From Helicobacter sp. (GTDB lineage Bacteria; Campylobacterota; Campylobacteria; Campylobacterales; Helicobacteraceae), in NCBI RefSeq assembly GCF_022770205.1, contig NZ_JALEIK010000002.1, positions 1 to 48,555 of the forward strand: a stretch of 48,555 bases of DNA, read 5' to 3'. Shown here one piece after another: positions 8,364-36,581 of this stretch. The position numbers were made by a program, and so were the translations under genes. The stretch's first letter is position 1, and each line of letters opens with the position of its first letter. Under the pieces are notes generated by a model, which was given only the letters and a program-made list of their open reading frames with translations, had not been told where the DNA came from and did no database searches.

Positions 8364-8394
8364 TGGTTAATTTTAATGATAAGGAAGGTCTGTT

Positions 8395-9384: not shown

Positions 9385-9853
9385 GATGATAGAAAGTTTA
9401 TTAAAAAAGGGTTATGGTGTGATTCTTAGGGAGCATCCTTTTTTTGTGCAAAAACAGAGTTGTATTGAGCAGTGGAGCAAATATGAAAATTTTAAAATGG
9501 GCGATACAAAGCAATGGCTTGATGATTCTTTTTTAAATGTTGGAGTGATTGTTACGGATTATTCTTCTATGGGTTCTAGTTTTCCTTATGTTGGATTGGT
9601 GCGTTCAGTTTTTTTGAATCAAAATCCGGGGAATCTCATTAAAATTGATGGTGTTGAAGTGTATGATTCTTGTGTGAGTTCGGTTTTTTCTAATATGCAA
9701 GAAGCACAAAAGGAAATTGAATCTATTTTAAATCCTTTGACACAGAAAGAAACAAGAGAATTTTTAGAAGATTACAGAGAGAAGCAAGTGTATAATTTAA
9801 GAAAATCAGGAAGTTTTATTGCGGATTTTATTGTGAAACTTATGGATGAATAG
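9296..9853 (+). CDS. C-terminal domain of the phase-variable glycerophosphotransferase-like protein
   Basis: This frame has only a nominal TTG start inside the upstream gene, with no ribosome site, so it is read as the second half of the gene beginning at 8395. It shows the CDP-glycerol glycerophosphotransferase signatures: ILLAPQRLSN at the domain start, a helix followed by GVILREHPFF, and VIVTDYSSMGSSFPYVG, where the acidic/serine loop binds the CDP pyrophosphate in relatives. The end, YREKQVYNLRKSGSFIADFI, is a C-terminal signature shared with four other proteins in this locus. In the present OFF state this domain is not made as part of the enzyme. Confidence 0.65.
   Translation: MKLWWGGGKTSILLAPQRLSNLVCIEGFVEMIESLLKKGYGVILREHPFFVQKQSCIEQWSKYENFKMGDTKQWLDDSFLNVGVIVTDYSSMGSSFPYVGLVRSVFLNQNPGNLIKIDGVEVYDSCVSSVFSNMQEAQKEIESILNPLTQKETREFLEDYREKQVYNLRKSGSFIADFIVKLMDE
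9309..9318 (+). repeat. Poly-G tract of 10, phase-variation switch
   Basis: Ten G bases lie at the junction between the two domains of a glycerophosphotransferase-like gene. At 10 the product is cut off after 329 residues. At 9 or 12 the reading GGT/GGG...AAA ACA AGC joins the C-terminal domain, whose first residues, KTSILLAPQRL, correspond to the start of the second Rossmann fold. Confidence 0.85.
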
Positions 9854-9861
9854 GGGTTTTG

Positions 9862-10533
9862 ATGGAGTTTGAAAAGATTGTAGGAGTGATAGAATCTAGG
9901 CGGGAGGTGCTTAAAAGGAGTGAGATAAGCATTGAAGTGGTGGATTTTGGTGCGGGAAGTCCGCAAGATAAACGCACAAAAGAAGAGATGGAAAAGGGTG
10001 TTTTGTGTGCGATTGCGCTTTGTGATTTAGCAAAAATTGGAGTTAAGAGAGAAAAGGCGCAGGAGATTTTTAAGATTTTTAAAGCCTTAAATCCTAAGGT
10101 GATTTTAGAGCTTGGCACTTGCTGTGGGTTTTCTAGCAGTTATATGAGTTATTTCGCGCCAGAGTCTAGGATTTATAGCATTGAAGGGAGTGAGAATGTC
10201 GCAAACATCGCAAGGGAGAATCATCAAGGCTTTGGGCTTAAGAATGTTGAAGTTTTAGTGGGGCGATTTAATCTTGTGCTGCCTAGCCTTTTAGAGCGTG
10301 TTGCGCCGCTAGATTTTGCCTTCATTGATGGGCATCACGATAGGTTTGCGACGCTGGAGTATTTTCACACAATCCGCCCTTTTATGTCTAAAGGTGGGGT
10401 GATGCTTTTTGATGATATTGCTTGGAGTGGTGGAATGCAGGGGGCGTGGGAGGAAATATTGGAATCTAAAATGTATAAAGAAGCCTATGTTGTGGGTGAA
10501 AATGCTTGGAAAATGGGGGCTGTATGGCTGTGA
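9862..10533 (+). CDS. Class I SAM-dependent O-methyltransferase
   Basis: Starting at ATG 9862 behind AGGGG, the protein has 223 residues. It carries the SAM-binding motif VILELGTCCGFSSSYMSYF, an acidic residue after strand 2 (IYSIEGSE), and LDFAFIDGHHDR followed by GGVMLFDDI. The last two are typical of the Methyltransf_24 / CmcI-like O-methyltransferases, where these acidic residues can bind a metal. It lies between the glycerophosphotransferase-like gene and the aminotransferase gene, and overlaps the latter by 10 bases. A sugar hydroxyl is the likely acceptor. It is unrelated in sequence to the pair of methyltransferases at 14333 and 15230. Confidence 0.75.
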   Translation: MEFEKIVGVIESRREVLKRSEISIEVVDFGAGSPQDKRTKEEMEKGVLCAIALCDLAKIGVKREKAQEIFKIFKALNPKVILELGTCCGFSSSYMSYFAPESRIYSIEGSENVANIARENHQGFGLKNVEVLVGRFNLVLPSLLERVAPLDFAFIDGHHDRFATLEYFHTIRPFMSKGGVMLFDDIAWSGGMQGAWEEILESKMYKEAYVVGENAWKMGAVWL

Positions 10534-11633
10534 AGTTTTTAGATTTGCATAAGCAGTATTTAAGCATTAAAAATGAGATTGATAGGGCGATATTTTCTGT
10601 GATTAAAACTTGTGCGTTTGTGGGCGGGGTGGAAGTTGAAGCCTTTGAAAAAGAGTTTGCTAGTTTTATTAGTGAGGGAATTTTGGGCGGAGGAGTGCAG
10701 GCGTTAGGCGTGGCAAATGGGACGGATGCGCTAGAGATTGCCATTAGGGCATTGGAGTTGCCTAGGGATTCTGTGGTGCTAGTGCCTGCAAATAGCTTTG
10801 TAGCAAGTGCTGAAGCGGTGGTTAGCAATGGGTTAAGGGTAAAATTTGTGGATTGCGGGGAGGATTATTCGCTTGATATTGCGGATTTGAAGGCTAAGAT
10901 TGACTCTGAAGTGAGTGCGATTGTGGTGGTGCATTTGTATGGAATCCCTGCAAATATGGAAGAGATTTTAAGGTTAGCAAAAGAATGGAATCTAAAAATC
11001 ATTGAGGATTGCGCACAGGCACACGGAGCTAGATTTAATGGGCAGAGAGTTGGGAGCTTTGGTGATGTGGGGGCGTTTAGCTTTTATCCGGGCAAGAATT
11101 TGGGGGCTTATGGTGATGGGGGAATGATTGTAAGTAAGGATTCTGCGCTGTTAAGAAAGTGCAAGGAAATCGCTCATCACGGGGGGCTTAGGAAGTATCA
11201 GCATAAGATTGTTGGGAGAAATTCTAGGCTAGATGCGTTGCAAGCGGCGATTTTGCGCGTGAAGTTGCGTTATTTAGAAGCTTGGAATGCTAGGCGCAAG
11301 GAAGTGGCGCAAATGTATTTTAAAGGGCTTAGTGGTTTTACTCTGCCAAAGGTGGCTAGTGATAGGGAGTGTGTGTGGCATTTGTTTGTGTTGCGCTGTG
11401 AAAATTGCTCTGCTATAATGGAATCACTGCATAAAGTTGGAATTCAAACAGGGCTGCATTATCCTACTGCGCTGCCTAATACCCCTGCATTTTTTAAAAA
11501 GCCCTATGTTGTAGCGTCAGAGTGCAAAAATGCGAATGCGTGGCAGGATAAGATTCTCTCACTGCCTATGGGGGAGCATTTAGAGAACGATGAGGTAGAA
11601 AAAGTGATTAAAATTTTAAAGGAGAATTGCTAA
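10524..11633 (+). CDS. DegT/DnrJ/EryC1-family PLP aminotransferase
   Basis: The 369-residue protein starts at ATG 10524 (MAVKFLDLHKQY), behind a G-rich site inside the preceding gene. The PLP-binding Lys191 lies in SFYPGKNLGAYGDGG. Other family motifs are ANGTDALEIAIRAL, VPANSFVAS, EDCAQAHGA and the acceptor-side NSRLDALQAA. DegT enzymes transfer the amino group of glutamate to a keto-sugar nucleotide. With the WlbA-like dehydrogenase at 6129 it would form the 3-amino sugar that is then acylated by the acetyl- or formyltransferase upstream, in the manner of WbpE; this assignment is an inference. The stop shares a base with the next start (TAATG). Confidence 0.85.
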   Translation: MAVKFLDLHKQYLSIKNEIDRAIFSVIKTCAFVGGVEVEAFEKEFASFISEGILGGGVQALGVANGTDALEIAIRALELPRDSVVLVPANSFVASAEAVVSNGLRVKFVDCGEDYSLDIADLKAKIDSEVSAIVVVHLYGIPANMEEILRLAKEWNLKIIEDCAQAHGARFNGQRVGSFGDVGAFSFYPGKNLGAYGDGGMIVSKDSALLRKCKEIAHHGGLRKYQHKIVGRNSRLDALQAAILRVKLRYLEAWNARRKEVAQMYFKGLSGFTLPKVASDRECVWHLFVLRCENCSAIMESLHKVGIQTGLHYPTALPNTPAFFKKPYVVASECKNANAWQDKILSLPMGEHLENDEVEKVIKILKENC

Positions 11634-12979
11634 TGCATTATTATATTTATCCTGCGGGGGGGGGGGGGAATTGTGTAGCTTGGTTAATAGAGTTTTTCAA
11701 TCATAAAGAGGGGAGAAGTGATACTTACTCCTTTATTGATGATTCTAATCCAAAAACCAGTTTAGAATCTTGTTATAAGGAGATAAAGGATTGTGAAGTT
11801 TTAATTGCTTCAGATAGGTTTTATGAAAAGCTTGTGGATAATTTACTAGCTTTTGGAATTAGGAATTTTTCTAATGGAATTAAGAAGTTTGCTAAGGAAT
11901 TGAATGCAAATTTTAGCAATAGTGGGAAAAATGTGGGATTAATTTGTGATGATTATGCGAGTCAAAAACATTTTGGAAATATTGCAGAAGAGTTAGAGAA
12001 TGCGGGGTTTAGAGTGTTTTATCTGAAATTGTTTGGTTCTCACGAATATAATGTGGATTTGACAGATACAAATGCATTGTTAATTGTGAGTGATTTTTTG
12101 TCGTATTTACATTTTTGTCCTTTAATGATTGGAACAACCTTTCACTATGTTGTGCATAGAGAAGTAAAATATATTAGTCTTTTTAGTGCGTATTATATTC
12201 CAAATTTTCATTTATATTATCATACAAGAGAGGCAAGAGGAAGGGCTTTTTCGCATTGTGAAATCGCATCTTTTGTAAATTATTATATTGTATGCTCCAA
12301 TAAGAAAAGTTATGAGAGTTTAGTAGAGTTTTTTGAAAAAAACAATGGCTATAAGGAAAGATTGCTCAAGCTTGGGTATCCTAGTTTAGATAGGGAAGTG
12401 AAATCTTATAGGCAACAAGAAGAGTGTGTAAAAGATACAATTATTGTTCTAGCGGTGGTGCGGAGAGAATTTTTAAAAAAATTAGCCGAGCGTTTAATTA
12501 ATGCTTTGTTGGAGAAGACAGATTATAGGATTGTGTATAAAACACACAATGGACACCCCGAGCTTTTTGAGCAAGAAAAGCAGTTTGTTTCCCAATGGAT
12601 AGATGATGATAATTTTGTTTTTTACACAGAGGCAAATTTGACACCACAGGAGCTAAAGCGAAGTATCACGCTCATAGAAAGCAGAAGTTCTTTGCTTTAT
12701 ACTTATCCGCTTATTACAGGTAAGCCATCAATTATTCTTCAGCCTGATTCTAAGTTTTTAGAGTCTAGCGAAGATAATTTTTATGAAGAGAGATTGCATA
12801 TTAAAGCATTTTGTGTAGAGGATGTGTTAGAGATTCTTATACTTTTAGAAAATGCGCAATTTTGTGCTAAAAGAGAGGAAATGGTAGAAGATTATCGCAA
12901 AAATGATGCGTATTGTTTTGGAGAAGCATCAAAAAGCATTGTGCAGTTTATTTGTGAGTGTTTTCAAAAGTATATTTAA
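11633..12979 (+). CDS. CDP-glycerol glycerophosphotransferase-like protein, phase-variable (ON)
   Basis: The 448-residue protein starts at ATG 11633. A 13-G tract directly after eight codons encodes the glycines of MHYYIYPAGGGG. It is in frame here, so this gene is ON. The body shows the two-domain layout of the paralogues: VGLICDDYASQKHFGNIAEE, then KLGYPSLDREV at the domain boundary, then IVYKTHNGHPE and SITLIESRSSLLYTYPLITGKPS near the C-terminus, and the closing signature YRKNDAYCFGEASKSIVQFI. The first residues, YYIYPAG, are shared with the gene at 13035 (YYVYPSG). Any length change not in threes would end translation almost at once. The likely role is transfer of a CDP-activated phospho-group to a glycan. 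Confidence 0.7.
   Translation: MHYYIYPAGGGGNCVAWLIEFFNHKEGRSDTYSFIDDSNPKTSLESCYKEIKDCEVLIASDRFYEKLVDNLLAFGIRNFSNGIKKFAKELNANFSNSGKNVGLICDDYASQKHFGNIAEELENAGFRVFYLKLFGSHEYNVDLTDTNALLIVSDFLSYLHFCPLMIGTTFHYVVHREVKYISLFSAYYIPNFHLYYHTREARGRAFSHCEIASFVNYYIVCSNKKSYESLVEFFEKNNGYKERLLKLGYPSLDREVKSYRQQEECVKDTIIVLAVVRREFLKKLAERLINALLEKTDYRIVYKTHNGHPELFEQEKQFVSQWIDDDNFVFYTEANLTPQELKRSITLIESRSSLLYTYPLITGKPSIILQPDSKFLESSEDNFYEERLHIKAFCVEDVLEILILLENAQFCAKREEMVEDYRKNDAYCFGEASKSIVQFICECFQKYI
11656..11668 (+). repeat. Poly-G tract of 13 near the start codon, gene ON
   Basis: Thirteen G bases begin 23 bases after the ATG, read as GCG GGG GGG GGG GGG AAT. At this length the frame is open for 448 residues. Slippage by one or two bases would give a very short peptide, making this the tightest on/off switch of the set. 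Confidence 0.85.
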
Positions 12980-13034: not shown

Positions 13035-13838
13035 ATGTATTATGTATATCCTTCAGGATGGACAGGAAAACTTTTGGCTGCTATGGTTGAGTATGTGGAT
13101 GGGGTTTGTCCAAAGCTAGTAGATGATGCTGTGTTTGGAAGCGGATTGTTAGACTATAAAGAGGAGATTTTAAAGACGCATTCTATTGTATTGCTTGCTT
13201 GGGATAAAAAATCAGGTTGGAATGATTCTACAATGCAGCAATTGGTTATGAAGTTACAAAAATTTGGGATTCCTTATGAGGAAAATGCGATGGAGCAGTA
13301 TGCTCTCAAGGTTGTTGAAAAGTTAAAAGCAAATGTCCTAAGTAAAGGGATTAGGAGATGTGTAGGTATTGAGCTTGGAGGAATGGCAGAAGACAAGCAC
13401 ATTGGATTATTGGATGATTTATTGGTTGAAATCTTTGGAAAGAATGTTTTGATTCTTTATTTTTGTGGTTTTATAGAATCTTACAAAAGGATTTTGCGAA
13501 AAATTAAAAATAATAATATTCCTGCCCTTGCTGTGTGCTTATCCCCTTATGATTTGGCAATGGTGGATTTTGTTGATGTTTTGTGCAAAGTTTCTTGGAC
13601 ATTAAAAAATCCTTCTGTCAAAACGATTGAAATAGGACATTCAATGAGTGATTTTTCTAAAATGGATTTAGATCAATATGAAGAATATTTTGATGATTTA
13701 TGTATTGCAAGCAGTGATTTTTACCCTAAAACTAAACCGCAGATGATCACTTGTTTAAAAAGTGGTTATTTAGCCTTTGATAGGACTTGTGCAGAATTAG
13801 TTGGTTTAGGTAGCGGGGGGGGGGGGGGTATTGTTTGA
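13035..13838 (+). CDS. N-terminal part of phase-variable glycerophosphotransferase-like protein (OFF)
   Basis: ATG 13035 follows a weak AAAGG. The protein starts MYYVYPSGWTGKLLAAMVEY, like its neighbours at 11633 and 15963, and includes CVGIELGGMAEDKHIG and KSGYLAFDRTCAEL before a 14-G tract. At 14 it ends after SGGGGGIV at 13838. The second domain follows in another frame (13831-14346). With 13 or 16 G the two would join as a 436-residue protein. A 55-base gap separates it from the upstream gene. The family assignment rests on shared N- and C-terminal motifs with the other paralogues rather than on a diagnostic catalytic motif in this half. Confidence 0.65.
   Translation: MYYVYPSGWTGKLLAAMVEYVDGVCPKLVDDAVFGSGLLDYKEEILKTHSIVLLAWDKKSGWNDSTMQQLVMKLQKFGIPYEENAMEQYALKVVEKLKANVLSKGIRRCVGIELGGMAEDKHIGLLDDLLVEIFGKNVLILYFCGFIESYKRILRKIKNNNIPALAVCLSPYDLAMVDFVDVLCKVSWTLKNPSVKTIEIGHSMSDFSKMDLDQYEEYFDDLCIASSDFYPKTKPQMITCLKSGYLAFDRTCAELVGLGSGGGGGIV
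13815..13828 (+). repeat. Poly-G tract of 14, longest in the window
   Basis: Fourteen G bases follow AGC at the boundary between the two domains of a glycerophosphotransferase-like gene. At 14 the product stops 11 bases beyond the tract, at TGA 13836. At 13 the codons GTA TTG TTT GAT bring in the C-terminal domain. The tract lies at the same inter-domain position as those at 9309 and 16974. Confidence 0.85.
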
Positions 13839-14346
13839 TGCTTATGATGAAAAAGAATTTTATGGAATGTTGCCTTTGATAAAAGAAGTTTTAAAGGAGT
13901 ATAAGGTAAGATTCCGCGCTAGATTTTTTACACAGGGAAGCGATTGGAAGCAGAGTAAAAGAGTGATAGAGATGTTGTTGCAGAATCCTAATTTTAGTGT
14001 GGATGCAAATTGGAAGATGTCTTTAGAGAGTTATAGAGATTCTTTCGTATTGGTTTGTGGAGCAACAACAATGCAATACACCTTTCCCTTATTGACTTTA
14101 TGTCCATCTCTAGTTTTGTCAGATTCTTTAGGATCTTTAAGTGAGAATCTTGGAGTTGTGTGTGCAAAGGATATCTCGCCTAGTGCGTTTCTAAAAATCG
14201 TGCAGGAGATAGAAGCTAATGGGTTAATATGGAGAGAGAAAATTTTACATTATCGCAAAACTAAGTGTTATAACTTTGGAAATGCAAGTGCGTATTTAGC
14301 AGAATTTATTTTTAATTTTTTAAGGAGAAAGTATGGAACAAAGTGA
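13831..14346 (+). CDS. C-terminal domain of the phase-variable glycerophosphotransferase-like protein
   Basis: The 171-residue frame starts at a nominal TTG right after the G tract and is best read as the second half of the gene beginning at 13035. It opens FDAYDEKEFYGMLPLIKEVL, contains VLVCGATTMQYTFPLLTLCPS, which corresponds to the donor-binding loop of the paralogues, and ends YRKTKCYNFGNASAYLAEFI, the shared C-terminal signature. The usual Asp-Tyr-Ser-Ser of the loop is replaced here by Gly-Ala-Thr-Thr, so donor binding may differ from that of the other family members. It overlaps the start of the methyltransferase gene at 14333 by 14 bases. Confidence 0.6.
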   Translation: MFDAYDEKEFYGMLPLIKEVLKEYKVRFRARFFTQGSDWKQSKRVIEMLLQNPNFSVDANWKMSLESYRDSFVLVCGATTMQYTFPLLTLCPSLVLSDSLGSLSENLGVVCAKDISPSAFLKIVQEIEANGLIWREKILHYRKTKCYNFGNASAYLAEFIFNFLRRKYGTK

Positions 14347-14773
14347 TTTTACAGAGTTGGCAAAGCATTATCACAATCGTCCAGCATATAGTGAAATGTT
14401 ATTGCAAAAGCTTATTGCTTGTGTGAATGCGGAGAACAAGCCATTGCAGGATTTGCAAGTTGTTGAGGTTGGTGCTGGCACTGGGAAGCTTACAAAAATG
14501 TTGAGTGATTTGGGTTTGCCTGTGTGTGCTGTTGAGCCAAATGATAATATGCGCACTGAAGGCATTGGATACACCAAAGATTCTAAAGTGCAGTGGATAA
14601 AGGGAAGTGGAGAGGATACAGGAGTGGAATCTAATTTTGCAAATTGGGTGATTATGGCAAGCTCTTTTCATTGGACTGATCCTAGTAAATCTCTGCCGGA
14701 GTTTGCAAGAATCCTAGACTCTAGCGGGGGGGGGGGTATTTTACAGCTATTTGGAATCCGCGCAATCTCCTAG
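14333..14773 (+). CDS. N-terminal part of phase-variable class I methyltransferase (OFF)
   Basis: ATG 14333 lies behind AAGGAGAAAGT. The sequence is a Methyltransf_11-type SAM domain: HYHNRPAYSEMLLQKL, the SAM loop VVEVGAGTGKLTKML near residues 43-57, CAVEPNDNMR, and ASSFHWTDPSKSL. An 11-G tract after LDSS shifts the frame, and the product ends as GGGGILQLFGIRAIS. The proper continuation, YFTAIWNPRNLLEGSV, lies in another frame (through 15156). With 12 or 9 G the gene would encode 274 residues, ending like its intact paralogue at 15230. By position beside the phosphoramidate genes it resembles the Cj1419/Cj1420 methyltransferases of C. jejuni; this link is an inference. Confidence 0.7.
   Translation: MEQSDFTELAKHYHNRPAYSEMLLQKLIACVNAENKPLQDLQVVEVGAGTGKLTKMLSDLGLPVCAVEPNDNMRTEGIGYTKDSKVQWIKGSGEDTGVESNFANWVIMASSFHWTDPSKSLPEFARILDSSGGGGILQLFGIRAIS
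14726..14736 (+). repeat. Poly-G tract of 11, switch in methyltransferase gene
   Basis: Eleven G bases follow TCT AGC in the middle of a SAM-methyltransferase gene. At 11 the product is cut to 146 residues. At 12 or 9 the downstream codons TAT TTT ACA GCT ATT TGG are read and the domain is completed. The same position in the paralogue at 15230 encodes KKGSYFSCMWN without a homopolymer. Confidence 0.85.
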
Positions 14774-14781
14774 AAGGCTCG

Positions 14782-15156
14782 GTGTTTGATAGGATTGAAA
14801 AGAAAATTAAGAATATTGTTCCAGAGCTTGCTCGTGTGAGTAGTGGCGCGCAAAATGTGAAAAAATGGGAAGAAATCCTTGTATCCACAGGGGATTTTAA
14901 AGATTGTTTTTTTATGGAATGCGATTACATTGAGATAATGGATAAAGAGCGTTATCTTGGGGCGTGGCATTCTGTAAATGATATACAAGCCCAAGCAGGA
15001 AAGAAGCGATGGGGAGAGATTTTAGCGATGATTGAAAAAGAAATTGCTCCCTTTGAAACTCTAGAGATTCCTTATAAAATTCGCGCTTGGACAGCTAAGG
15101 TGGTAAAAAAGACTACTAAGGCTAGGGAAGCTGGGGGGGGGGCAATTTCTAGCTAG
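14782..15156 (+). CDS. C-terminal part of the phase-variable methyltransferase
   Basis: A GTG at 14782 gives 124 residues, but the frame is open back to the G tract at 14736 and matches the paralogue from there. It therefore belongs to the gene starting at 14333. It contains the equivalent of the YINAWRSVKNP region of the paralogue as YLGAWHSVNDIQAQ, and an end, YKIRAWTAKVV, aligned with KYATRCWSARKL. A second tract of 10 G near the end sets the last residues. At 10 the tail is AGGGAISS. A single-base loss would extend it by about 30 residues, up to a TAG just before the ATG at 15230. Confidence 0.6.
   Translation: MFDRIEKKIKNIVPELARVSSGAQNVKKWEEILVSTGDFKDCFFMECDYIEIMDKERYLGAWHSVNDIQAQAGKKRWGEILAMIEKEIAPFETLEIPYKIRAWTAKVVKKTTKAREAGGGAISS
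15133..15142 (+). repeat. Second poly-G tract (10) in the same methyltransferase gene
   Basis: Ten G bases lie 12 bases before the stop at 15154. Length 10 gives the tail GGGAISS. Length 11 gives GGGGNF and a stop. Length 9 reads on through QFLASCFLQ to a TAG just upstream of the next gene. This tract changes only the C-terminal tail, unlike the upstream tract, which abolishes the domain. Confidence 0.8.
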
Positions 15157-15229
15157 TTGCTTTTTGCAATCTATTCCTTTTAGATGCGTTCCTTGCTTTC
15201 TTGCTTGTGGCGTTTTGAAAGGATAGAAA

Positions 15230-15997
15230 ATGCAAAAAATTGTAGAACAGGTATGGGATTACACAAAACACGCGAAATTTTATGAATATCGTCCCAATTA
15301 TGCGCCCGCAACCCTTGATATGTTGGTGGCTTTAGTTGGGCGCAATCATACAGAAATCAAGGTTGCAGATATTGGTGCAGGGACAGGGAATTTAAGCATT
15401 ATGTTGTTAGAGAGAGGTTGTAAGGTAGTAGCAGTTGAGCCAAATGATGCGATGCGCGAGATCGGAGAGAAACGCACAAAAGGACAAGATATAGAATGGG
15501 TGCGTGCCATTGGAGTGGATTCTACGCTAGAATCTAATGCTTTTGATTGGGTAACTTTTGGAAGCAGTTTTAATGTGATGGATAGAAGAAAGGCGTTAGA
15601 GGAATCGCATAGGTTATTAAAGAAAGGGAGCTATTTTTCTTGTATGTGGAATCATAGGGATTTAAACGATGCCATTCAAAAGATTGCTGAAGATGTGATT
15701 ATGCAGTTTGTGCCAAACTATACGCGTGGCGTTAGAAGGGAGGATCAAAAACCTTTTTTGCTAGAGCAAAAGGATTTATTTGATGGTATCATTTACACAG
15801 AGGAGGATTTCTATTTTCATCAAAGTTTAGAAAATTATATCAATGCTTGGAGAAGTGTGAAAAATCCTTATTGGGATTTAGAGACAAAGGAGGGTGAAGA
15901 GTTGTTTGAAAAAATCACGCAAGAATTAGCAAAAAAACTTTCTAACGCATTTGACATTAAATATGCAACAAGGTGCTGGAGTGCAAGGAAACTTTAG
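15230..15997 (+). CDS. Class I SAM-dependent methyltransferase
   Basis: This intact 255-residue protein starts at ATG 15230 behind AAAGGAT. The SAM loop is VADIGAGTGNLSIMLL near residues 45-60, followed by VVAVEPNDAMRE and a C-terminal lobe containing ENYINAWRSVKNPYWDL. It is a clear paralogue of the split methyltransferase at 14333-15156, with the same N-terminal layout and the same EPND motif, but it has no G tract, so it would stay on when its sister is off. The pair next to phosphoramidate genes mirrors the two methyltransferases of the C. jejuni MeOPN locus. The acceptor could be the phosphoramidate oxygen, but this is inferred. It overlaps the following gene by about 35 bases. Confidence 0.75.
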   Translation: MQKIVEQVWDYTKHAKFYEYRPNYAPATLDMLVALVGRNHTEIKVADIGAGTGNLSIMLLERGCKVVAVEPNDAMREIGEKRTKGQDIEWVRAIGVDSTLESNAFDWVTFGSSFNVMDRRKALEESHRLLKKGSYFSCMWNHRDLNDAIQKIAEDVIMQFVPNYTRGVRREDQKPFLLEQKDLFDGIIYTEEDFYFHQSLENYINAWRSVKNPYWDLETKEGEELFEKITQELAKKLSNAFDIKYATRCWSARKL

Positions 15998-17531
15998 AAG
16001 TATTTATCTTTATCCTAATGGCGAGGACACGCAGGCAATTAAAGTGATTTTAGAAAATCTCAAAGATTTTTTTTCTTATGAGAATCTTTTTATTTTAGAT
16101 GATGCAAAAGAGGAGAGTTCTCTTTTTGCATACAAAGATGAGATTGCAAAAAATGGTGAGCTTTGGATAGCGCATCAAGATAAAAAGATTTATTGCACGC
16201 TTATGCAAAAAGCAAGGATTTTGTCTAAGGATTTAGTGTGTAATGGGATTGAAAAAATGCAATTGTTATTGCATAAGCATTTAAAAGAAATGCGGTTTGA
16301 AGCTATTATTGCAAGCCAAAAGAATATTATGTTTTTAAACCTTACAAGTTATTTTGTTTCTCAATTTTTTATAACTTTAACTAAAGACAATGATTTGATT
16401 AAAATTTTGAAAATATTAAGTCAAGAAATAAGTATTTATTTTAAAAACTTATTAAATATTCCTGAAAATTCTATTGGAATTGCTGTAACTACTTTTTCTT
16501 CTAATAGACATTTAGGCAACATTGGACAGCTTTTAGAGGATATGGGTGTTTATGTGGTTTATGTTTATTATAATACAGAGAGTTTTAATGAGATTCCTCC
16601 AAGCAAGGGTTCTAAAGCAGTTATTATTCCTTTACAAATGAGCTATATGGGAAAATTTCTTAATATTTTTAAAATGTTTATAACTTGTCTAATGCCTTTA
16701 GCGGCTCCGAATTTAGGTTGTAAAATGGTTTATGTTTCTCACGCTTATATTGATCCTATTGCTGCATTAGTTCAGAGGAAGCGCCCTTTGGATAATTTTT
16801 GGTTTCAAAGAAAAGTGGGTATTGGCGGATATAGAATTATTCCATCGCTTTCAAATTATAAAATCTATGAAGATGCAGTGAAGGCATTGGGATATGAAGA
16901 TGAGCTAGTTTGTGGTGGATATCCTAGTTTAGATTTTGCCATTAAAGAATATGAGGAATTGCCATTGAATAGCGGGGGGGGGGGCAATATTTTGATAGCT
17001 ATTAATGCTTTAGATAATATAGGAATCATAGAAGAATTTTTGATGCAAATTCAAAATCAATCTGCGCAAAACTTTAAGGTAATTTTCCGTCCCCATCCGG
17101 GCTATAAAACACAGAGTGCGATCATTGGCATTAAAGAAAAATTTATGCAGCAAGATTGGTTTATTTATGATGATAGCAGTCGGTTAAGTGCTGAAAGTAT
17201 GCGAGATTCTTGTGTGCTTATTGGGGATTATTCAAGTTTGGTTTGGACATTTCCTTTGATAACTTTAAAGCCTGCTATATTGGTTTTTAAAGATAAAGCG
17301 ATAATAAAAAATGTCTATAATGGAGTTAGTTTTTTTAATCCCTTGTTGCATTTTTTAGCTAGTGATGCAGATGAAATATTTTCTTGTATTGTGGAATCCA
17401 AAAAACACACAGAGCAAAGAGCACAAAAAATTTTAGAATACAGAAAAAAGGAAGTCTTTAATCTAGGACATTCTAGTGAGTTTATTGCTAATTTCATTGT
17501 AAAGAAATTAAAAGAAGAAGGTCGTGGGTAA
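15963..17531 (+). CDS. CDP-glycerol glycerophosphotransferase-like protein, phase-variable (ON)
   Basis: I place the start at ATG 15963 (522 residues). GTG 15978 is an alternative that leaves a start closer to the paralogues (RSIYLYPNGE). Family features are IAVTTFSSNRHLGNIGQLLE, VYVSHAYIDP, the boundary GGYPSLDFAIKEYEEL, and then an 11-G tract in frame as SGGGGNILIAINAL. After it come VIFRPHPGYKT, with the conserved His-Pro, and VLIGDYSSLVWTFPLITLKPA, with the Asp-Tyr-Ser-Ser loop. It ends with the shared signature YRKKEVFNLGHSSEFIANFI. All family motifs are present and the gene is ON. It directly precedes the glutamine kinase gene with no spacer, so it is a strong candidate transferase for that pathway's product. 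Confidence 0.75.
   Translation: MQQGAGVQGNFRSIYLYPNGEDTQAIKVILENLKDFFSYENLFILDDAKEESSLFAYKDEIAKNGELWIAHQDKKIYCTLMQKARILSKDLVCNGIEKMQLLLHKHLKEMRFEAIIASQKNIMFLNLTSYFVSQFFITLTKDNDLIKILKILSQEISIYFKNLLNIPENSIGIAVTTFSSNRHLGNIGQLLEDMGVYVVYVYYNTESFNEIPPSKGSKAVIIPLQMSYMGKFLNIFKMFITCLMPLAAPNLGCKMVYVSHAYIDPIAALVQRKRPLDNFWFQRKVGIGGYRIIPSLSNYKIYEDAVKALGYEDELVCGGYPSLDFAIKEYEELPLNSGGGGNILIAINALDNIGIIEEFLMQIQNQSAQNFKVIFRPHPGYKTQSAIIGIKEKFMQQDWFIYDDSSRLSAESMRDSCVLIGDYSSLVWTFPLITLKPAILVFKDKAIIKNVYNGVSFFNPLLHFLASDADEIFSCIVESKKHTEQRAQKILEYRKKEVFNLGHSSEFIANFIVKKLKEEGRG
16974..16984 (+). repeat. Poly-G tract of 11 at domain boundary, gene ON
   Basis: Eleven G bases read as AGC GGG GGG GGG GGC AAT keep the transferase gene open. 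A one- or two-base change would remove the C-terminal CDP-binding domain. The tract follows the YPSLD motif at the same place as the tract in the 8395 gene; the 13035 gene has its tract after the matching GYLAFD element. Confidence 0.85.
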
Positions 17532-19850
17532 ATGTATCGTGTGAATTTTATTTCAAAAGCGCGGAATCTTGAAAATTTACAGGGGAAATTGCAAAGTGCA
17601 AAAATTTTGCCACTAGTGATTACAAATAAAATTAGTTTTCAAAATAATATACAAAAAGTTTTGAAAGAAGTTAAAAATCTTCAAGCAAAAAGTGTTGTTG
17701 TAAGAAGTTCATCAAAAGTTGAAGATAGCAAAGAGTCATCTTGTGCTGGAAAATTTAAAAGTCTTTTAAATGTTGAGATAGCGGAGCAGGCTATAACACA
17801 GGCAATTTTAGAGGTTGGGGATTCTATGCCAAATTTAGATGATGAAATTCTAATCCAACCAATGTTGGAATCCGTATTATTTTGTGGTGTTGCTTTTAGT
17901 GTGGATAAGGATAGTTTTGCTCCCTATTTTTGCATTGAATTTGATGAAAGTGGCTCTACGCATTCTATCACTGATGGGAGTTCTAAGAATAAAAGCAGTT
18001 TTTTTGCGCACCGCGATGCTGAAAAGGTAGATGATAAAAATTTGGAAAAAGTTATTAAACTTATTAAGGAATTAGAGAGTATTTTTGATTATACTTTTTT
18101 GGATATTGAATTTGCAATTACAGAAAATGGGGATTTATATTGCTTGCAAGTTCGACCGCTTGTGAAAAATGCCATTAATCTTTTTTATTCTCTTCCAAAA
18201 GATGCACTAGAACGATTACAAAAACGCTTTTTAAGGTTTCAGCAGCCTAGGGTTGGAGTGTATGGAAAAAAAGCGGTTTTTGGAGTGATGCCAGATTGGA
18301 ATCCTGCAGAAATGATTGGATTAAAGCCCAAGCGTTTAGCACTTTCTTTGTATAAGGAAATTATTACAGATGAAACTTGGGCGTATCAAAGGGATAATTA
18401 TGGATATTTAAAATTGCGTTCGCATCCCTTGATGTATTCTTTTTTGGGAATGCCTTTTGTTGATGTGCGTCTTTCTTTTAATTCTTTTATCCCTAAGAGT
18501 TTAGATGAAAATATTTCTTCAAAGTTAGTTGATTTTTATTTGAATAAATTAATAGAAAATCCGCATTTACACGATAAGATTGAGTTTGGGATTGTATATT
18601 CTTGTTATGATTTAAACACTTCAAATAAACTGAAAAATCTTTTAGAAAGTGGATTTAATGAAAATGAAATTAAGCGTTTGGAGTTTGCACTCTTAGAGCT
18701 TACAAATGCGATTATTTCTCCAAAAGAGGGACTTTATTTAAAAGATTTAAATAAAGTCAATAAACTATCAAATATTTATCAAGAAATTATTACTTCAAAT
18801 TTGTCTTTAATTGATAAGATTTATTGGCTAATAGAGGAATGCAAGCGTTATGGAACATTGCCTTTTGCAGGGGTTGCAAGGGCTGGATTTATTGCTATGC
18901 AAATGCTTAACTCTCTAGTTGAAATTGGTTTTTTTGCTCCTGAAGAAAAAATGCAGTTTTTAAATTCTTTGCAAACTATAAGCAAGAAGCTAAGTCTAAA
19001 AGTGCAGAATCTAAAACCAGAAAATAAACAAGAGTTTTTAAGGGAATTTGGGCATTTGCGTGCAGGAACTTATAATATCCTATCGCCGCGCTATGATGAA
19101 GAGTTTGATAAATATTTTAATTTTTTAGAAATAAAAAGTGAAGTTATACAGGAATCTTTTACGCTTTCTTTGCAGAAAGAAAAACATTTAGATAGAATTT
19201 TAAAAGAGCACGGACTTAAAATATCTGCTAAGGATTTTTTTGACTTTTTAAAAACTGCTATTGAAGGAAGGGAATTTGCAAAGTTTGAATTTAGCAAACT
19301 TTTATCCAAGGCGATCTCTTTAATTGGGGAATTGGGCGAACATTATGGAATCTTAAAAGAGGATATTGCGCATTTGGATATTAAAAGCATTTTAACGCTG
19401 TATTCTTCATTGTATTCTGAGAGTCCCAAGCAAAGATTGCTTAATGAAATCGCACAAAACAAAAAGGAATATCAGCTAACACTTGCCCTTAAGCTTCCAG
19501 CACTTTTAAAAGATGCAAGCGAAATTTTTAGCTTTTATAGTTTGCAAAATCAACCAAATTTCATCACGCAAAAAAGCATTATCGCAGGGATTGCTAAAGA
19601 AAATGATACGGAGTTAGAAGGCAAAATTGTTTTAATCAGGGCAGCAGATCCGGGTTATGATTATCTCTTTTCTAAAAATATTGCAGGGCTAATTACTTGT
19701 TATGGCGGTGCTAATTCTCATATGGCGATTCGTGCTTCTGAGCTTGGATTACCAGCAGCAATTGGTGTAGGAGAAGAGTTATTTGTTGTGCTGCTAAATA
19801 GCGAGCGGATTGAGTTAGATTGCGGAAGTGAGCGCATTGTATGTCTGTAA
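17532..19850 (+). CDS. Glutamine kinase of phosphoramidate biosynthesis (Cj1418-like)
   Basis: The 772-residue protein has an N-terminal ATP-grasp domain of the PEP synthase type ([13 protein letters not shown] with Arg58, and YCLQVRPLV near residue 210). A long middle region follows, and then a C-terminal swivelling phospho-histidine domain ([20 protein letters not shown], His730). Length and layout match C. jejuni Cj1418, an L-glutamine kinase that phosphorylates the amide nitrogen of glutamine as the first step of MeOPN synthesis. Annotation as PEP synthase or pyruvate phosphate dikinase is less likely, because it lacks their full C-terminal PEP/pyruvate barrel after the His domain. The next gene, overlapping by 10 bases, looks like the Cj1417 hydrolase, which strengthens the call. 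GC and codon use match its neighbours. Confidence 0.8.
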
Positions 19851-20461
19851 AGCTCATTGGAATCTCACAAAGGCTTTTAGAAAACACGAGCTATTTTGAG
19901 ATAAGGGAGGCACTAAGTGCGGATTGGGGAGAGTTTTTTAAAAAGCATTTAGAAGATTTTTTGCCTATTCCTTTAAGTTATGCGATTCCTTTTTCTTATT
20001 ATGTGAAGTTTAGCGTATTAAGTGGTGTGATTTTAAGTGGTGGGAATGATTTAAACACGCTCAATCCAAATCCGCTTTCACAAATGCGCGATTTGTATGA
20101 AGATGCGATTATTGCGGAGTGTTTGCAAAAAAGGATTCCGCTTTTAGGCATTTGTAGGGGGGCGCAAAAAATTGCAGAATATTTTGGTTCTAGGCTTGAA
20201 CAATGCGTGGGGCACACGCAAAAGCATATTGTATCTAGTAAGGAAGGGGAGTTTTGGGTAAATTCTTACCATAATTATTGCATTACGCATTTAGGAAGTG
20301 ATTTGGAGAGAATTGATAGTGCAGGTGATGGCAGTGTGGAATCCTTTTTGCATAAGAATGCGCAGGTTTATGGTGTAATGTGGCATATTGAGCGCGAAGG
20401 TGGAATGGAGAATACTTTGTTGTTTGAAGCGTGGAGAGAGTTAGTAAGGAGTTGGGAATGA
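19841..20461 (+). CDS. Class I glutamine amidotransferase-like hydrolase (gamma-glutamyl-CDP-amidate hydrolase, Cj1417-like)
   Basis: The 206-residue protein has the class I glutamine amidotransferase triad: Cys105 in LLGICRGAQ, and His183 with Glu185 in VMWHIERE. An oxyanion-region SGGND lies near residue 67. It resembles the puuD-type gamma-glutamyl hydrolases. In C. jejuni the equivalent Cj1417 cleaves CDP-L-glutamine to release glutamate and cytidine diphosphoramidate. The position directly after the glutamine kinase gene supports the same role here. There is no synthetase partner domain, which fits a stand-alone hydrolase. Its stop overlaps the start of the small gene at 20458 (ATGA). 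Confidence 0.78.
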
Positions 20462-20931
20462 AAATTTTGTATGCACCTAGCCAAAGAGCATTTAGTGATG
20501 ATTTGCGTGTGAATGTTGCGTGTGGGTTTGATGTGATGGTTTTAGATTCCATATTGGAGTCTAAAAGTGGAGAGGTTTTGTATCTGCCACACGAAGAAAC
20601 TAGCCCTAAGATTGTGGAAGCGATTTTAGGGATTTTTGGGGATTCTCTTGAGCAAGCAGATGGGATGGCAAAAGTAGATGTGCTTGTAAGTGATGTTTCT
20701 ATTTTGGCATTGAAATATGCACTTTGGACAAGTCATCCTAGCATTTTGTGTCTTTTTGGGTTTAATGGTATCCAGTTGCCACAAAATGATAGATATTATA
20801 ATTTGGTTAGCCATTTGAGCCATTGCGTGTATTCTCCTAATGCGCTAAAAGAAACACTAAGGGATTATCAAAATATTAAGGAGCAAAAACAAGAAGAGAT
20901 TAAAAAGTTTTTGCAAGGAGTGGTGCTGTGA
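20458..20931 (+). CDS. Short glycerophosphotransferase-like protein (single C-terminal domain)
   Basis: Starting at ATG 20458 in an ATGA overlap, the protein has 157 residues. The start [10 protein letters not shown] resembles the domain start ILLAPQRLSN of the larger paralogues. VDVLVSDVSILALKYALWTSHPSILCLFGF corresponds to the conserved Asp-x-Ser donor loop plus the following strand. It thus looks like only the C-terminal Rossmann half of the CDP-glycerol glycerophosphotransferase fold, without a first domain and without the usual closing signature. It may pair with the next gene product, with which it is translationally coupled, or be a remnant. No frameshift or homopolymer is seen. Confidence 0.55.
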   Translation: MKILYAPSQRAFSDDLRVNVACGFDVMVLDSILESKSGEVLYLPHEETSPKIVEAILGIFGDSLEQADGMAKVDVLVSDVSILALKYALWTSHPSILCLFGFNGIQLPQNDRYYNLVSHLSHCVYSPNALKETLRDYQNIKEQKQEEIKKFLQGVVL

Positions 20932-21875
20932 TGCAAAGGCAAATCAATGAATTTATAGAGATGAGCAAGCGCACAATGGAATCTTTTTTGAGTAAAGAAC
21001 GCAAAAATATTGTTGTTGTAGCGTATTATCCAACTTATCGCAAGCATTATGGGGAGTTGTTGGTGCGATTAAAGGAAAAGTATAATGTTATCATTGTAGT
21101 TGAGCGTGTGCTAGGCGATGCGTTTGAGAGCAGTGGGCATCACAATTTGTATTTCCCTTGGAGAGTTATGGAAGACGGGCAGACATATTATCTTAATATG
21201 GATGTTGATGGGATTGATTTGATTTTAACAGCCGATGAGGTGGGTTATGAAGATGGAAGGATTGATAGGACATTTTTGAGCACAAAGGCAAAGCGTGTGT
21301 ATTTTCCGCATAGTTTGATTGAGCAAACAGGTGCTAGTGATGTGGTGGATTATATTTTAGTGCCTTCAAAAATCGCTATGGAATCTTTTAAGAATGCACT
21401 AAAAAATAGCAGGGTAAAGTTGCTAGAAAGCGGATATCCAAAGTTAGATGCAGCTATTAATTCTTATGCGTATCAAGATTCTAATACTATTACTTATGCT
21501 CCTAGTTTGCGTTATTTTAGTGGTGATAATGCAAGTTTGAATTTGTTTTCTGGTTTTGAAAATGCGATGGTGGAATCTTTATTGGAATTGACAGATTATA
21601 AGATTTCTTATCGTGCGCATCCGATGAATTTTCAAAACCATCACACATTTTATAATCTCATTAAAGCGCGTTGGCAAAATGAATCGCGCGTGAGTTTTGA
21701 TGAGCAGTTGGGAAATGCTTTTTGTAATTTTAGTGATTTTTTGGTAACAGATTTTTCTACCACGGCTTTTACTTATTCTTTCACGACATTGCGCCCTAGC
21801 TTATTTTTCACACCTTTAAAGTTGGAATCGCATTTGGCGAAATATATCTCTAGTGGGGGGGGGCAAAATTTGTAG
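20931..21875 (+). CDS. CDP-glycerol glycerophosphotransferase-like protein, phase-variable, truncated form (OFF)
   Basis: ATG 20931 (or GTG 20928) overlaps the preceding TGA. The protein shows both domains: VVVAYYPTYRKHYGELLVRL, VYFPHSLIEQTG, the boundary ESGYPKLDAAINSY, then TITYAPSLRYFSG, ISYRAHPMNF and DFLVTDFSTTAFTYSFTTLRPS. Near the end a 9-G tract gives ISSGGGQNL and a stop. With 10 or 7 G the frame continues to TAG 22028, adding FVAKRIIKRSIEVLD and the family end signature FRDENVYNIGASVNVIMEQI, for 366 residues. The truncated product keeps the donor loop but loses about the last 55 residues, so it may be unstable or partly active. The extended form ends right before the cytidylyltransferase start. 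Confidence 0.7.
   Translation: MQRQINEFIEMSKRTMESFLSKERKNIVVVAYYPTYRKHYGELLVRLKEKYNVIIVVERVLGDAFESSGHHNLYFPWRVMEDGQTYYLNMDVDGIDLILTADEVGYEDGRIDRTFLSTKAKRVYFPHSLIEQTGASDVVDYILVPSKIAMESFKNALKNSRVKLLESGYPKLDAAINSYAYQDSNTITYAPSLRYFSGDNASLNLFSGFENAMVESLLELTDYKISYRAHPMNFQNHHTFYNLIKARWQNESRVSFDEQLGNAFCNFSDFLVTDFSTTAFTYSFTTLRPSLFFTPLKLESHLAKYISSGGGQNL
21855..21863 (+). repeat. Poly-G tract of 9 near the 3' end of a transferase gene
   Basis: Nine G bases after TCT AGT lead to CAA AAT TTG TAG. One additional G gives GCA AAA TTT GTA and keeps the frame open for a further 55 codons, to base 22030. The switch therefore decides whether the conserved C-terminal segment is present. Confidence 0.8.
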
Positions 21876-22030
21876 CAAAAAGGATTATAAAGAGGAGTAT
21901 TGAAGTATTAGACTTTAATAGGGATTATTCTAGGATTAAGAAATTTAGAGATGAGAATGTCTATAATATTGGGGCGTCTGTGAATGTGATTATGGAGCAG
22001 ATTGATGCAATTTTGAAAGAGAGTTTGTAG

Positions 22031-22804
22031 GTGAGAGCGTTAATTTTAGCGGCGGGTTTTGGCTCACGGCTTATGCCTTTAACAAAAAATCATCCAAAAT
22101 GTATGGTGGAGTATCAAGGTAAAAAGATTATTGATTATGAGATTTGCGCATTAAAAGAAGCTGGGATTGACGATATTGCAGTGGTTGGTGGATATTTGTT
22201 TGCAGTGCTAGAGGCGTATTTGAGAGATGCGCATAGGATTAAGAATGTTTTTAAAAATCCAAAATTTGATTCCACAAATATGGTTACCACATTGTTTTGC
22301 GCTAGGGAGTGGTTAGAATCTTGTGTGGAATCTAAGCAGGATTTGATTATTTCTTATGCAGATATTGTGTATTTTAAGGAGAGTGTTTTGGCTCTTAAAA
22401 ATTCTAATGCGCCTTTAAGCATTGTCGTGGATAAGGGGTGGCGCAAGCTTTGGGATAGGCGATTTAGCAATCCTTTAGAAGATGCAGAAACGCTAAAAAT
22501 GTGCAATGGAAACATTATTGAGCTTGGCAAGAAACCAAAGAATTATGATGAGATTGAAGCGCAATATATAGGTTTATTTAAGGTTTCTTGGGAATTTTTG
22601 CCGCAAATGCTTGCCTTTTATGATGGCTTAGATCGCACATTAAATTATGATGGCAAGGACTTTGATAATATGTATATGACGAGTTTTTTGCAAGGACTCA
22701 TTGATGCGTTTAATAATGCTAAGGCGGTGGTGATTAATGGAGGCTGGCTAGAAGTGGATTTTAAGAGTGATTTAGGCGTGAAAATTGCAAAAATTACTTT
22801 GTAG
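22031..22804 (+). CDS. Nucleotidyltransferase, phosphoglutamine cytidylyltransferase-like (Cj1416-like)
   Basis: The 257-residue protein starts at GTG 22031. It has the NTP-transferase signature LILAAGFGSRLMPLT with the catalytic Lys in KNHPKCMVEYQGK, and a metal-binding Asp in ISYADIVYF. The end INGGWLEVDFKSDLG is usual for choline-phosphate or sugar-phosphate cytidylyltransferases. In C. jejuni the equivalent Cj1416 condenses CTP with glutamine phosphate to CDP-L-glutamine. Context supports this role: the glutamine kinase and hydrolase genes are upstream and the CDP-amidate-kinase-like gene is next. A sugar-1-phosphate substrate is the alternative reading from sequence alone. Confidence 0.75.
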   Translation: MRALILAAGFGSRLMPLTKNHPKCMVEYQGKKIIDYEICALKEAGIDDIAVVGGYLFAVLEAYLRDAHRIKNVFKNPKFDSTNMVTTLFCAREWLESCVESKQDLIISYADIVYFKESVLALKNSNAPLSIVVDKGWRKLWDRRFSNPLEDAETLKMCNGNIIELGKKPKNYDEIEAQYIGLFKVSWEFLPQMLAFYDGLDRTLNYDGKDFDNMYMTSFLQGLIDAFNNAKAVVINGGWLEVDFKSDLGVKIAKITL

Positions 22805-22860
22805 AAATGCCTGTGCTATTTCAAATAATTTATAAAGAGATTTAAATTAAAGGAAGAATT

Positions 22861-23376
22861 TTGCGAGGAGTTTTAGTTTATATTACAGGACTAAGTGGTG
22901 CTGGCAAAACGACTTTAGCTAAAGAAGTGATTAAAAGCATAAAGGATAAGTTAAATATAAAGCCTATCTTTTTGGATGGGGATATTTTGCGTGAGTGCGT
23001 GATGAATAAGGATTATTCCACACAAGGGCGTTTTAATATGGCTTTATATTATGTGAAAGTGGCTAAACTTTTGGTAGATCAAGGGTTTGTTGTGGTATTA
23101 TCAACAATTTCTATGTTTGATAAAGTGCGTGCGTTTAATATGGAGAATTTTCAAAATTACTTAGAAGTGTATTTGGAGGTTTCAGAGGAAATCCGCAAAC
23201 AAAGAGATCCAAAAGATTTTTATAAACAGAATATAGTGGATATGGCTGGGCTTGATCAAAGTGTGGAGTTACCTAAAAATAGTCATTTGGTTTTTAAAGA
23301 TAATTTTGATATTGATTTTGCTTGTGAAAAAATTTTAGAAAAAATTAAGGAGTTTAATGCAGGAATTGCTTTATAA
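22861..23376 (+). CDS. APS-kinase-like P-loop kinase, CDP-amidate kinase-like (Cj1415-like)
   Basis: The 171-residue protein starts at TTG 22861 with AGGAAG upstream. It has the Walker A sequence ITGLSGAGKTTLAKEV, then FLDGDILRECV, and an end with DFACEKILEKI. It belongs to the adenylylsulfate kinase fold. No sulfate-activation genes are near. In C. jejuni Cj1415 puts a 3'-phosphate on cytidine diphosphoramidate, and the neighbours here are the other pathway genes, so I favour that reaction. The gene overlaps cysQ by 20 bases, a link that makes sense because the 3'-phosphorylated nucleotide left after transfer would need a 3'-phosphatase. Confidence 0.78.
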   Translation: MRGVLVYITGLSGAGKTTLAKEVIKSIKDKLNIKPIFLDGDILRECVMNKDYSTQGRFNMALYYVKVAKLLVDQGFVVVLSTISMFDKVRAFNMENFQNYLEVYLEVSEEIRKQRDPKDFYKQNIVDMAGLDQSVELPKNSHLVFKDNFDIDFACEKILEKIKEFNAGIAL

Positions 23377-24205
23377 AACCGCTTTGATTGCGTTAGAAGC
23401 GGGTGAAATTGTTTTAAAATATTATGGTTTAGAGGATTTTGATTTGAAGCAAGATTCTTCACCTTTAACAAAGGCAGATTTGGAATCTAATGCTTTAATT
23501 GTGCAAAAATTGCAAGAAATTTCTCCCTATCAAGTGTGTTCTGAAGAGGCAGTGCTAGAGTATGCAAAACGCAAGGATTTAGAGTATTTTTGGCTCATTG
23601 ACCCCCTTGATGGCACGAAGGATTTTTTAGCGCAAAATGGAGGATTTACCATCAATATTGCATTAATCCATAAAAATCGTCCTATTTTGGGGGTAGTGTT
23701 TGCTCCTGCATTTTCTAAGCTCTATATCGCATTAAAGGGCTTTGGGAGTTTTAATTATGGTATAGAATCACTAAGGAATGCAAGAGAAAATGGCGCATTA
23801 AATGTAGCTTGGCTAGAGCAAAACAAAAATCGCTTAAATGGAGAGAGAATCGCACAAGATACGGAAATTATTGCGTGCGATTCTATGTTCCATAGCACAC
23901 AGGCTACAGAGGATTTTGTTAAAAAATACCATTTAAAAGTGCAAAAATATGGTTCATCGCTTAAAATTTGTGCCTTAGCAGAGGGGAGGGCAGATATTTA
24001 TCCGCGTTTTAATGGCACAAGTGAGTGGGATATTGCAGCTTGTGAGATTGTGTTAGAAGAGAGTGGTGGAATTGTATTAGATTGTGTTACTAAAAAGCCT
24101 TTGGTTTATAATAAGGAAAATTTTAGAAATAACCATTTTGTTGCATTTGCAAAGGCGCAAATTGGGGGAGAAATTTATCAGGATATTTTGGGTGGGAATT
24201 TTTAG
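23357..24205 (+). CDS. cysQ: CysQ-type 3'(2'),5'-bisphosphate nucleotidase
   Basis: The 282-residue protein is a member of the inositol-monophosphatase superfamily. Metal-binding motifs are present: KADLES, then SEE, then LIDPLDGTKDF near residues 81-91, and SEWDIAACEIVLEESGG near the C-terminus. CysQ removes the 3'-phosphate from PAP. In this operon, directly after and overlapping a CDP-amidate-kinase-like gene, it may instead act on 3',5'-bisphosphocytidine released when the phosphoramidate is transferred; this is my inference. It is the last gene of the glycan locus: a 73-base gap with a promoter separates it from topA. Confidence 0.85.
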   Translation: MQELLYKTALIALEAGEIVLKYYGLEDFDLKQDSSPLTKADLESNALIVQKLQEISPYQVCSEEAVLEYAKRKDLEYFWLIDPLDGTKDFLAQNGGFTINIALIHKNRPILGVVFAPAFSKLYIALKGFGSFNYGIESLRNARENGALNVAWLEQNKNRLNGERIAQDTEIIACDSMFHSTQATEDFVKKYHLKVQKYGSSLKICALAEGRADIYPRFNGTSEWDIAACEIVLEESGGIVLDCVTKKPLVYNKENFRNNHFVAFAKAQIGGEIYQDILGGNF

Positions 24206-36515: not shown

Positions 36516-36581
36516 TTTTAGAATATATTTTTAAAGCAAAATTTTGTAAAATTGGAGTATTTTTATTTTTAAGGGATGGAT

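Follow-up and report, generated by a model that had tools for sequence, protein, structure and literature searches.

A predicted phosphoramidate donor operon in Helicobacter and a proposed 3'-phosphate cycle resembling that of sulfation

O-methyl phosphoramidate (MeOPN), which in Campylobacter plays a role in phage recognition and host interaction, has been described in a review as a Campylobacter-only modification (PMC6429109), and the glutamine kinase of its donor pathway has been called specific to C. jejuni (reviewed in PMC9561416). Unmethylated phosphoramidate has been reported in the lipopolysaccharide of Xanthomonas and Shewanella (PMC3907429). The published C. jejuni donor is the 3'-phosphate of cytidine diphosphate (CDP)-phosphoramidate, and the methyltransferases at the Cj1419 and Cj1420 positions have no assigned function (PMC11800397); the known MeOPN transferases, Cj1421 and Cj1422, carry the domain DUF2972 (PMC5808241). 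Here we describe a locus of this kind in a Helicobacter species with a 1.6-Mb genome. The window analyzed is an entire 48.6-kb contig (NZ_JALEIK010000002.1), in which positions 17532-23376 appear to hold a full operon for making an (O-methyl) phosphoramidate donor, the activities being predicted. An earlier note had read four genes there as a complete pathway of the Cj1415-Cj1418 kind; all four are intact open reading frames (ORFs) at the place claimed, and family matches and identities bear out this core reading. Our literature search, which could not reach the bulk of the subscription literature or the first enzymological work on Cj1415-Cj1418, returned no report of Helicobacter MeOPN genes and none of CysQ or a sulfotransferase in the pathway.

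Our explanation of the whole, which we regard as probable, is a surface-glycan phosphoramidate donor operon that feeds a cycle like that of 3'-phosphoadenosine 5'-phosphosulfate (PAPS), with a shared last-step module and switching by poly-G tracts. With the four donor steps assigned from homologous enzymes of C. jejuni, the glutamine kinase would phosphorylate the amide nitrogen of glutamine, the cytidylyltransferase would couple phosphoglutamine to cytidine monophosphate (CMP), the hydrolase would cut the coupled product to CDP-amidate, and the fourth enzyme would phosphorylate the ribose 3'-hydroxyl. DUF2972 transferases, encoded outside the window and predicted to have a sulfotransferase fold, may then use the 3'-phosphate as their handle; transfer would free cytidine 3',5'-bisphosphate, which a CysQ-like protein encoded next to the kinase could return to CMP. 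The methyltransferases, the 3'-kinase, and CysQ would make up the shared module, serving in sister species a phosphonate headgroup made by phosphoenolpyruvate (PEP) mutase. The decoration would be switched by poly-G tracts, which lie in methyltransferase and transferase-like genes and spare the donor genes.

The first three enzymes are close to their C. jejuni counterparts. The glutamine kinase scores 1057 bits against PRK05849 (cut-off 501), has PPDK_N and PEP-utilizers domains, and is 63% identical to the C. jejuni protein over its full length; His730, singled out in the earlier note, is invariant in 13 glutamine kinases. The hydrolase clears the NCBI curated cut-off for the exact function (NF045546, 294.7 bits versus 250) at 49-52% identity, and among the catalytic residues proposed for it Cys105 is correct and invariant, while those given as His183 and Glu185 are in fact His182 and Glu184, both likewise invariant. 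The cytidylyltransferase (64-65% identity) keeps its operon position and an invariant LAAGxGxRL...PK motif. None of the three finds its best matches in unrelated enzyme groups, which the earlier note had named as the outcome that would speak against its reading. The resemblance it expected to all of Cj1415-Cj1418 thus holds for these three, at 49-65% identity, and not for the Cj1415-position kinase, to which the fourth enzyme is only 35-38% identical, in a separate clade. This kinase scores 139 bits, above the cut-off of 127, against PRK05541, a subfamily model common to the Cj1415-position kinase, and falls below the equivalog cut-off for adenosine 5'-phosphosulfate (APS) kinase (TIGR00455, 94.4 versus 138.7). 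Judged by sequence, it does not appear to be a plain Cj1415 orthologue, and in the tree it falls within a group of phosphonate-operon kinases.

The unit exceeds 17532-23376, with the methyltransferase genes at 14333-15997 upstream and the CysQ-like gene downstream, and all features listed within it lie on the plus strand. To follow its distribution, we counted one genome per species, in a family sample of 121 Helicobacteraceae genomes with 14 control genomes beside them for the hydrolase. Of the 121 genomes, 53 have the hydrolase; none of the controls does. The CysQ-like gene is present in 52 of the 53 hydrolase-positive and 7 of the 68 hydrolase-negative genomes (Fisher 5e-25), counts that ignore kinship, many of the negative genomes coming from a single genus (g2). 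In 115 of the 121 genomes, kinase and CysQ are either both present (57) or both absent (58), and the two genomes with CysQ only are incomplete assemblies. In three genomes (G049, G051, and G053) CysQ and the kinase are joined in one open frame, and CysQ also lies within such operons of Sulfuricurvum, Spirochaetaceae, Chitinibacter, and one Holosporaceae genome. We propose that the CysQ-like protein recycles cytidine 3',5'-bisphosphate, a substrate that we infer from this setting.

The transferase step would fall to proteins encoded elsewhere. Neither a Cj1421-like nor a DUF2972 gene is present in the window, and at least two DUF2972 genes lie among housekeeping genes in the rest of the genome. 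In the Helicobacteraceae, DUF2972 occurs in 40 of the 53 genomes with the hydrolase and in 1 of the 68 others. For an AlphaFold model of a DUF2972 member from Campylobacter volucris, each of the 50 top structural matches is a sulfotransferase (Z 9.1-10.9), covering about 215 residues at 4 to 6 A. Searching solved structures with the DUF2972 sequence brought up nothing credible. The DUF2972 alignment conserves an RDPI motif after a strand, an arrangement that we take to resemble the 3'-phosphate loop of sulfotransferases. The MeOPN transferases of this family are therefore predicted to have a sulfotransferase fold, and this fold, the RDPI motif, and the 3'-phosphate of the published donor together suggest a PAPS-like cycle of kinase, transferase, and phosphatase. 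We also observed that a Campylobacter MeOPN transferase gene occurs as a tandem duplicate encoding an identical protein, one copy being frameshifted (L083 1143-4908).

Comparison within the source organism's genus revealed an exchange of cassettes. Among all 19 genomes of the genus, 14 have the hydrolase and five a fusion of PEP mutase and cytidylyltransferase, with none having both and none neither; the genome studied here has no match to the fusion. A sister genome (G080) has the order DegT-MTa-MTb-X-kinase-CysQ-TopA, as the window does, with three extra genes between kinase and CysQ; its X consists of a radical S-adenosylmethionine (SAM) gene, the PEP mutase fusion, and phosphonopyruvate decarboxylase, which replace 15951-22804 of the window. 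DNA identity with another phosphonate-type genome (G082) is 85-90% up to 11658, within a poly-G tract, apart from one gap at 8364-9862; it is lost after 11658 and returns at 22834, 27 bases before the kinase gene. The kinase of the window is sister to the phosphonate-operon kinase of G082 (82% identity) in a supported clade of such kinases, next to which stand those of the phosphoramidate operons of the H. bilis group. Given that the clade spans both operon types, the same kinase lineage would have served both headgroups, unless its role is unrelated to the headgroup.

Several fusions were seen in related clusters. The stretch between kinase and CysQ in G082 (L071 3784-6581) encodes a GNAT acetyltransferase that is fused to a second APS-kinase domain, as well as a fusion of cytidylyltransferase and aminotransferase; G080 (L096) has the same genes. 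In G054, G056, and G060, an APS-kinase domain is fused to a glutamine-kinase-like protein of 958-998 aa (L102 6545-13620, L103 4029-11242, L104 5329-12292), followed by a diverged hydrolase, a cytidylyltransferase, a PEP mutase fusion, and a phosphonopyruvate decarboxylase, with phosphoramidate-like and phosphonate genes in one cluster.

Besides the kinship among the genomes counted above, a number of observations weigh against a PAPS-like cycle with a shared module. The DUF2972 model is of modest quality, with a mean predicted local distance difference test (pLDDT) score of 61. Foldseek on its own produced only weak matches, headed by a sulfotransferase and none of them with E below 0.001. 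The CysQ-like protein is below its equivalog cut-off (TIGR01331, 202.1 bits versus 228.8), and CysQ is nearby in only 4 of the 33 loci examined outside Campylobacterota. In Campylobacter, CysQ occurs also in hydrolase-negative species and lies away from the cluster. It is general and unlinked across Campylobacteraceae, a pattern that in itself is neutral toward the cycle, and is tightly linked only in Helicobacteraceae and some other lineages; we rejected order-level co-occurrence as a line of argument because it fails in Campylobacteraceae. Outside the genus, kinase and CysQ are often missing from PEP mutase loci, several genomes being without them, so that phosphonates as such do not need them. 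Within it, all five phosphonate genomes encode ATP sulfurylase, so that a PAPS role is conceivable there.

An alternative is that kinase and CysQ perform ordinary sulfate activation, converting APS to PAPS and recycling the resulting 3'-phosphoadenosine 5'-phosphate, and adjoin a C. jejuni-like donor pathway by chance. Both proteins are of sulfate-metabolism families and the genome studied here has an ATP sulfurylase (an argument from its absence was for this reason dropped, and the case rests on other genomes). We nevertheless consider chance adjacency unlikely. Ten genomes that combine hydrolase, kinase, and CysQ showed no ATP sulfurylase and no CysD, so PAPS formation is not why the two genes are kept there, and 13 genomes possess ATP sulfurylase with none of hydrolase, kinase, and CysQ. 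Moreover, the sulfate-type enzymes of the family are separate: their CysQ scores 267-283 bits against TIGR01331, over the cut-off, and the kinases of G046 and G052 sit on a distant branch.

The kinase lineage raises the question of whether the product is some other N-P or phosphorus-containing nucleotide and not 3'-phospho-CDP-amidate, since the fourth enzyme, with its low identity to the C. jejuni kinase, derives from a phosphonate operon. This is quite unlikely in our view, given that the first three enzymes, with a hydrolase above its curated cut-off, define a CDP-amidate intermediate and that kinases of the same clade sit in the H. bilis group phosphoramidate operons. Very unlikely is that the operon is a decaying relic, as the frameshifts in the methyltransferase gene MTa and several neighboring transferase-like genes (at 9309, 13815, 14726, and 21855) might indicate: each break coincides with a poly-G tract (9-14 bases), relatives have the MTa tract in the same codons, and all five donor and recycling genes retain unbroken frames and their catalytic residues. 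The donor operon with a PAPS-like cycle thus remains our preferred explanation.

The poly-G tracts themselves are consistent with phase variation. Eight tracts (9-14 bases) occur between 2521 and 21863, where a first-order model expects 1.6 runs of at least 7; frames are broken in this assembly at 2521 as well as at the four positions above, in glycan genes. The tracts lie in MTa, Glyphos_transf-like genes, and others, and in none of the five donor and recycling genes. MTa is split by an 11-G tract at 14726-14736 into parts 61% and 79% identical to the Cj1420-position protein; we take the gene to be phase-variable and, in this assembly, switched off. In Campylobacter, Helicobacter, and one phosphonate-type cluster alike, its tract falls on the same codons, those of a conserved GGG-YFTAIW motif, so methylation is probably phase-variable in all of these. 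Further candidates for switching are transferase-like genes. GPd, whose position between MTb and the glutamine kinase gene is conserved in H. valdiviensis and others, contains an in-frame 11-G tract (16974-16984); its structure model (15984-17528) has a mean pLDDT of 56, too weak for use. Of the two glycerophosphotransferase-like genes that the earlier note saw interleaved with the donor genes, GPf is a confident Glyphos_transf match, truncated at a 9-G tract (21855-21863) with an alternative frame running about 55 codons further, to the next gene, and GPe has no Pfam or NCBIfam match. GPb and GPc have no Pfam domain, and the second part of GPc is weakly similar to GPd.

Table 1. Genes of the predicted unit and related genes (window coordinates unless a locus is named)
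Feature	Position	Strand	Remarks
GPb	11627..12979	+	13-G tract, in frame; phase-variable ORF at left edge of swapped region
GPc	13035..13838 and 13831..14346	+	Split by 14-G tract; phase-variable, left edge of swapped region
MTa, SAM methyltransferase, Cj1420 homologue	14333..15156	+	Methyltransf_11; two frames, 14333-14773 and 14782-15156
MTb, SAM methyltransferase, Cj1419 homologue	15230..15997	+	Methyltransf_11; 74% identity to C. jejuni Cj1419-position protein
GPd, Glyphos_transf-like, candidate transferase	15951..17531	+	PF04464 25.5 bits (cut-off 22.1), partial match
Predicted glutamine kinase (Cj1418 homologue)	17532..19850	+	772 aa; PRK05849 family
Predicted gamma-glutamyl-CDP-amidate hydrolase (Cj1417 homologue)	19841..20461	+	206 aa; NF045546
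GPe, short ORF	20431..20931	+	Homologous ORFs at same place in own-genus loci L052, L054 (36-53% identity)
GPf, Glyphos_transf-like	20928..21875	+	PF04464 E=8e-14
Predicted phosphoglutamine cytidylyltransferase (Cj1416 homologue)	22031..22804	+	257 aa; NTP_transferase
CDP-amidate 3'-kinase candidate, APS-kinase family	22861..23376	+	P-loop GLSGAGKTT; PF01583 E=4e-25
CysQ-like 3'(2'),5'-bisphosphate nucleotidase	23357..24205	+	Overlaps kinase gene; DPLDGT and WD motifs invariant (metal-binding motifs intact)
DUF2972 gene of own genome	L194 9535-10782		No internal stops; runs to contig end
DUF2972 gene of own genome	L195 8484-9887		No internal stops

The pathway reaches well beyond the family. 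Across the order, the hydrolase clusters in Helicobacteraceae and a single Campylobacter group, and further occurrences are scattered. A glutamine kinase profile scan of 84,980 species genomes confirmed 435 relatives (genome contigs) in many phyla, among them Pseudomonas, Lachnospiraceae, Bacteroidota, Spirochaetaceae, and one Pelagibacteraceae genome. In the best 80 glutamine kinase loci, 33 of them outside Campylobacterota, kinase, hydrolase, and cytidylyltransferase occur together in 71 and all four donor enzymes in 55, including 25 of the 33. This linkage across phyla suggests that the pathway is old and widespread, with the window as a new member. The view of phosphoramidate decoration as rare and mainly a matter of Campylobacter capsule, taken up in the earlier note, thus fits the literature and not the genes, and with these in nearly half of the sampled Helicobacteraceae genomes and in many phyla the decoration is worth seeking widely.

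What the Helicobacter donor would decorate is suggested by neighboring genes. The KpsC/KpsS family (PF05159) has no match in the genome, with an E. coli control positive, so a capsule of the C. jejuni type, one of the targets named earlier, is unlikely. Adjoining sugar genes (aminotransferase, formyltransferase, acetyltransferase, oxidoreductase, and amidotransferase) point to a glycan with N-acylated sugars, which could be lipooligosaccharide, O-chain, or flagellar glycan; a complete PseC is encoded elsewhere in the genome. Farther along the window are a 524-aa pentapeptide-repeat protein (40348-41922), in a patch of 26-27% GC compared with 36% for the window, and a 728-aa ORF (36576-38762) with two stretches of similarity to carboxynorspermidine synthase (405 positions), which may reflect a fusion or duplication.

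Relative to the C. jejuni scheme, what would be new is a PAPS-like cycle that includes CysQ, which we hold to be probable, and the swap of headgroups at one slot, the chemistry beyond homology being our inference. If true, the PAPS-like cycle would account for the 3'-phosphate of the donor, give the previously unlinked CysQ gene a job, suggest a fold for the MeOPN transferases, and predict that kinase and CysQ tolerate different headgroups. A broader proposal, on which we are evenly balanced between belief and doubt, is that bacteria have a general "3'-phospho-CDP" decoration system mirroring PAPS sulfation, made up of a kinase akin to APS kinase, a transferase of sulfotransferase fold, and a CysQ-like phosphatase for recycling, with interchangeable phosphoramidate and phosphonate headgroups swapped as cassettes at one Helicobacter chromosomal slot.

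Of the known systems, the MeOPN genes Cj1415-Cj1420 of C. jejuni come closest, sharing glutamine kinase, hydrolase, cytidylyltransferase, two methyltransferases, and phase-variable G tracts, as well as the order MTa-MTb-kinase-hydrolase-cytidylyltransferase. The Helicobacter operon differs in its kinase clade, the CysQ-like gene within the operon, and the interleaved Glyphos_transf-like genes, and whereas C. jejuni has the transferases Cj1421/Cj1422 and a Kps capsule as acceptor, here the DUF2972 genes are unlinked and KpsC/KpsS has no match. With PAPS sulfation by CysC, sulfotransferase, and CysQ, the locus has in common the kinase and phosphatase families and the predicted fold of the MeOPN transferases; in contrast, its nucleotide would be CDP-linked, and its kinase and CysQ score too low for the equivalog models of APS kinase and CysQ. 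Decoration with phosphonates made by PEP mutase and activated with CTP (PMC6697681) finds its likeness in the sister species, where the PEP mutase-cytidylyltransferase fusion and phosphonopyruvate decarboxylase occupy the same slot before kinase and CysQ, although our genome has no match to the fusion and the text of PMC6697681 names neither kinase nor CysQ.

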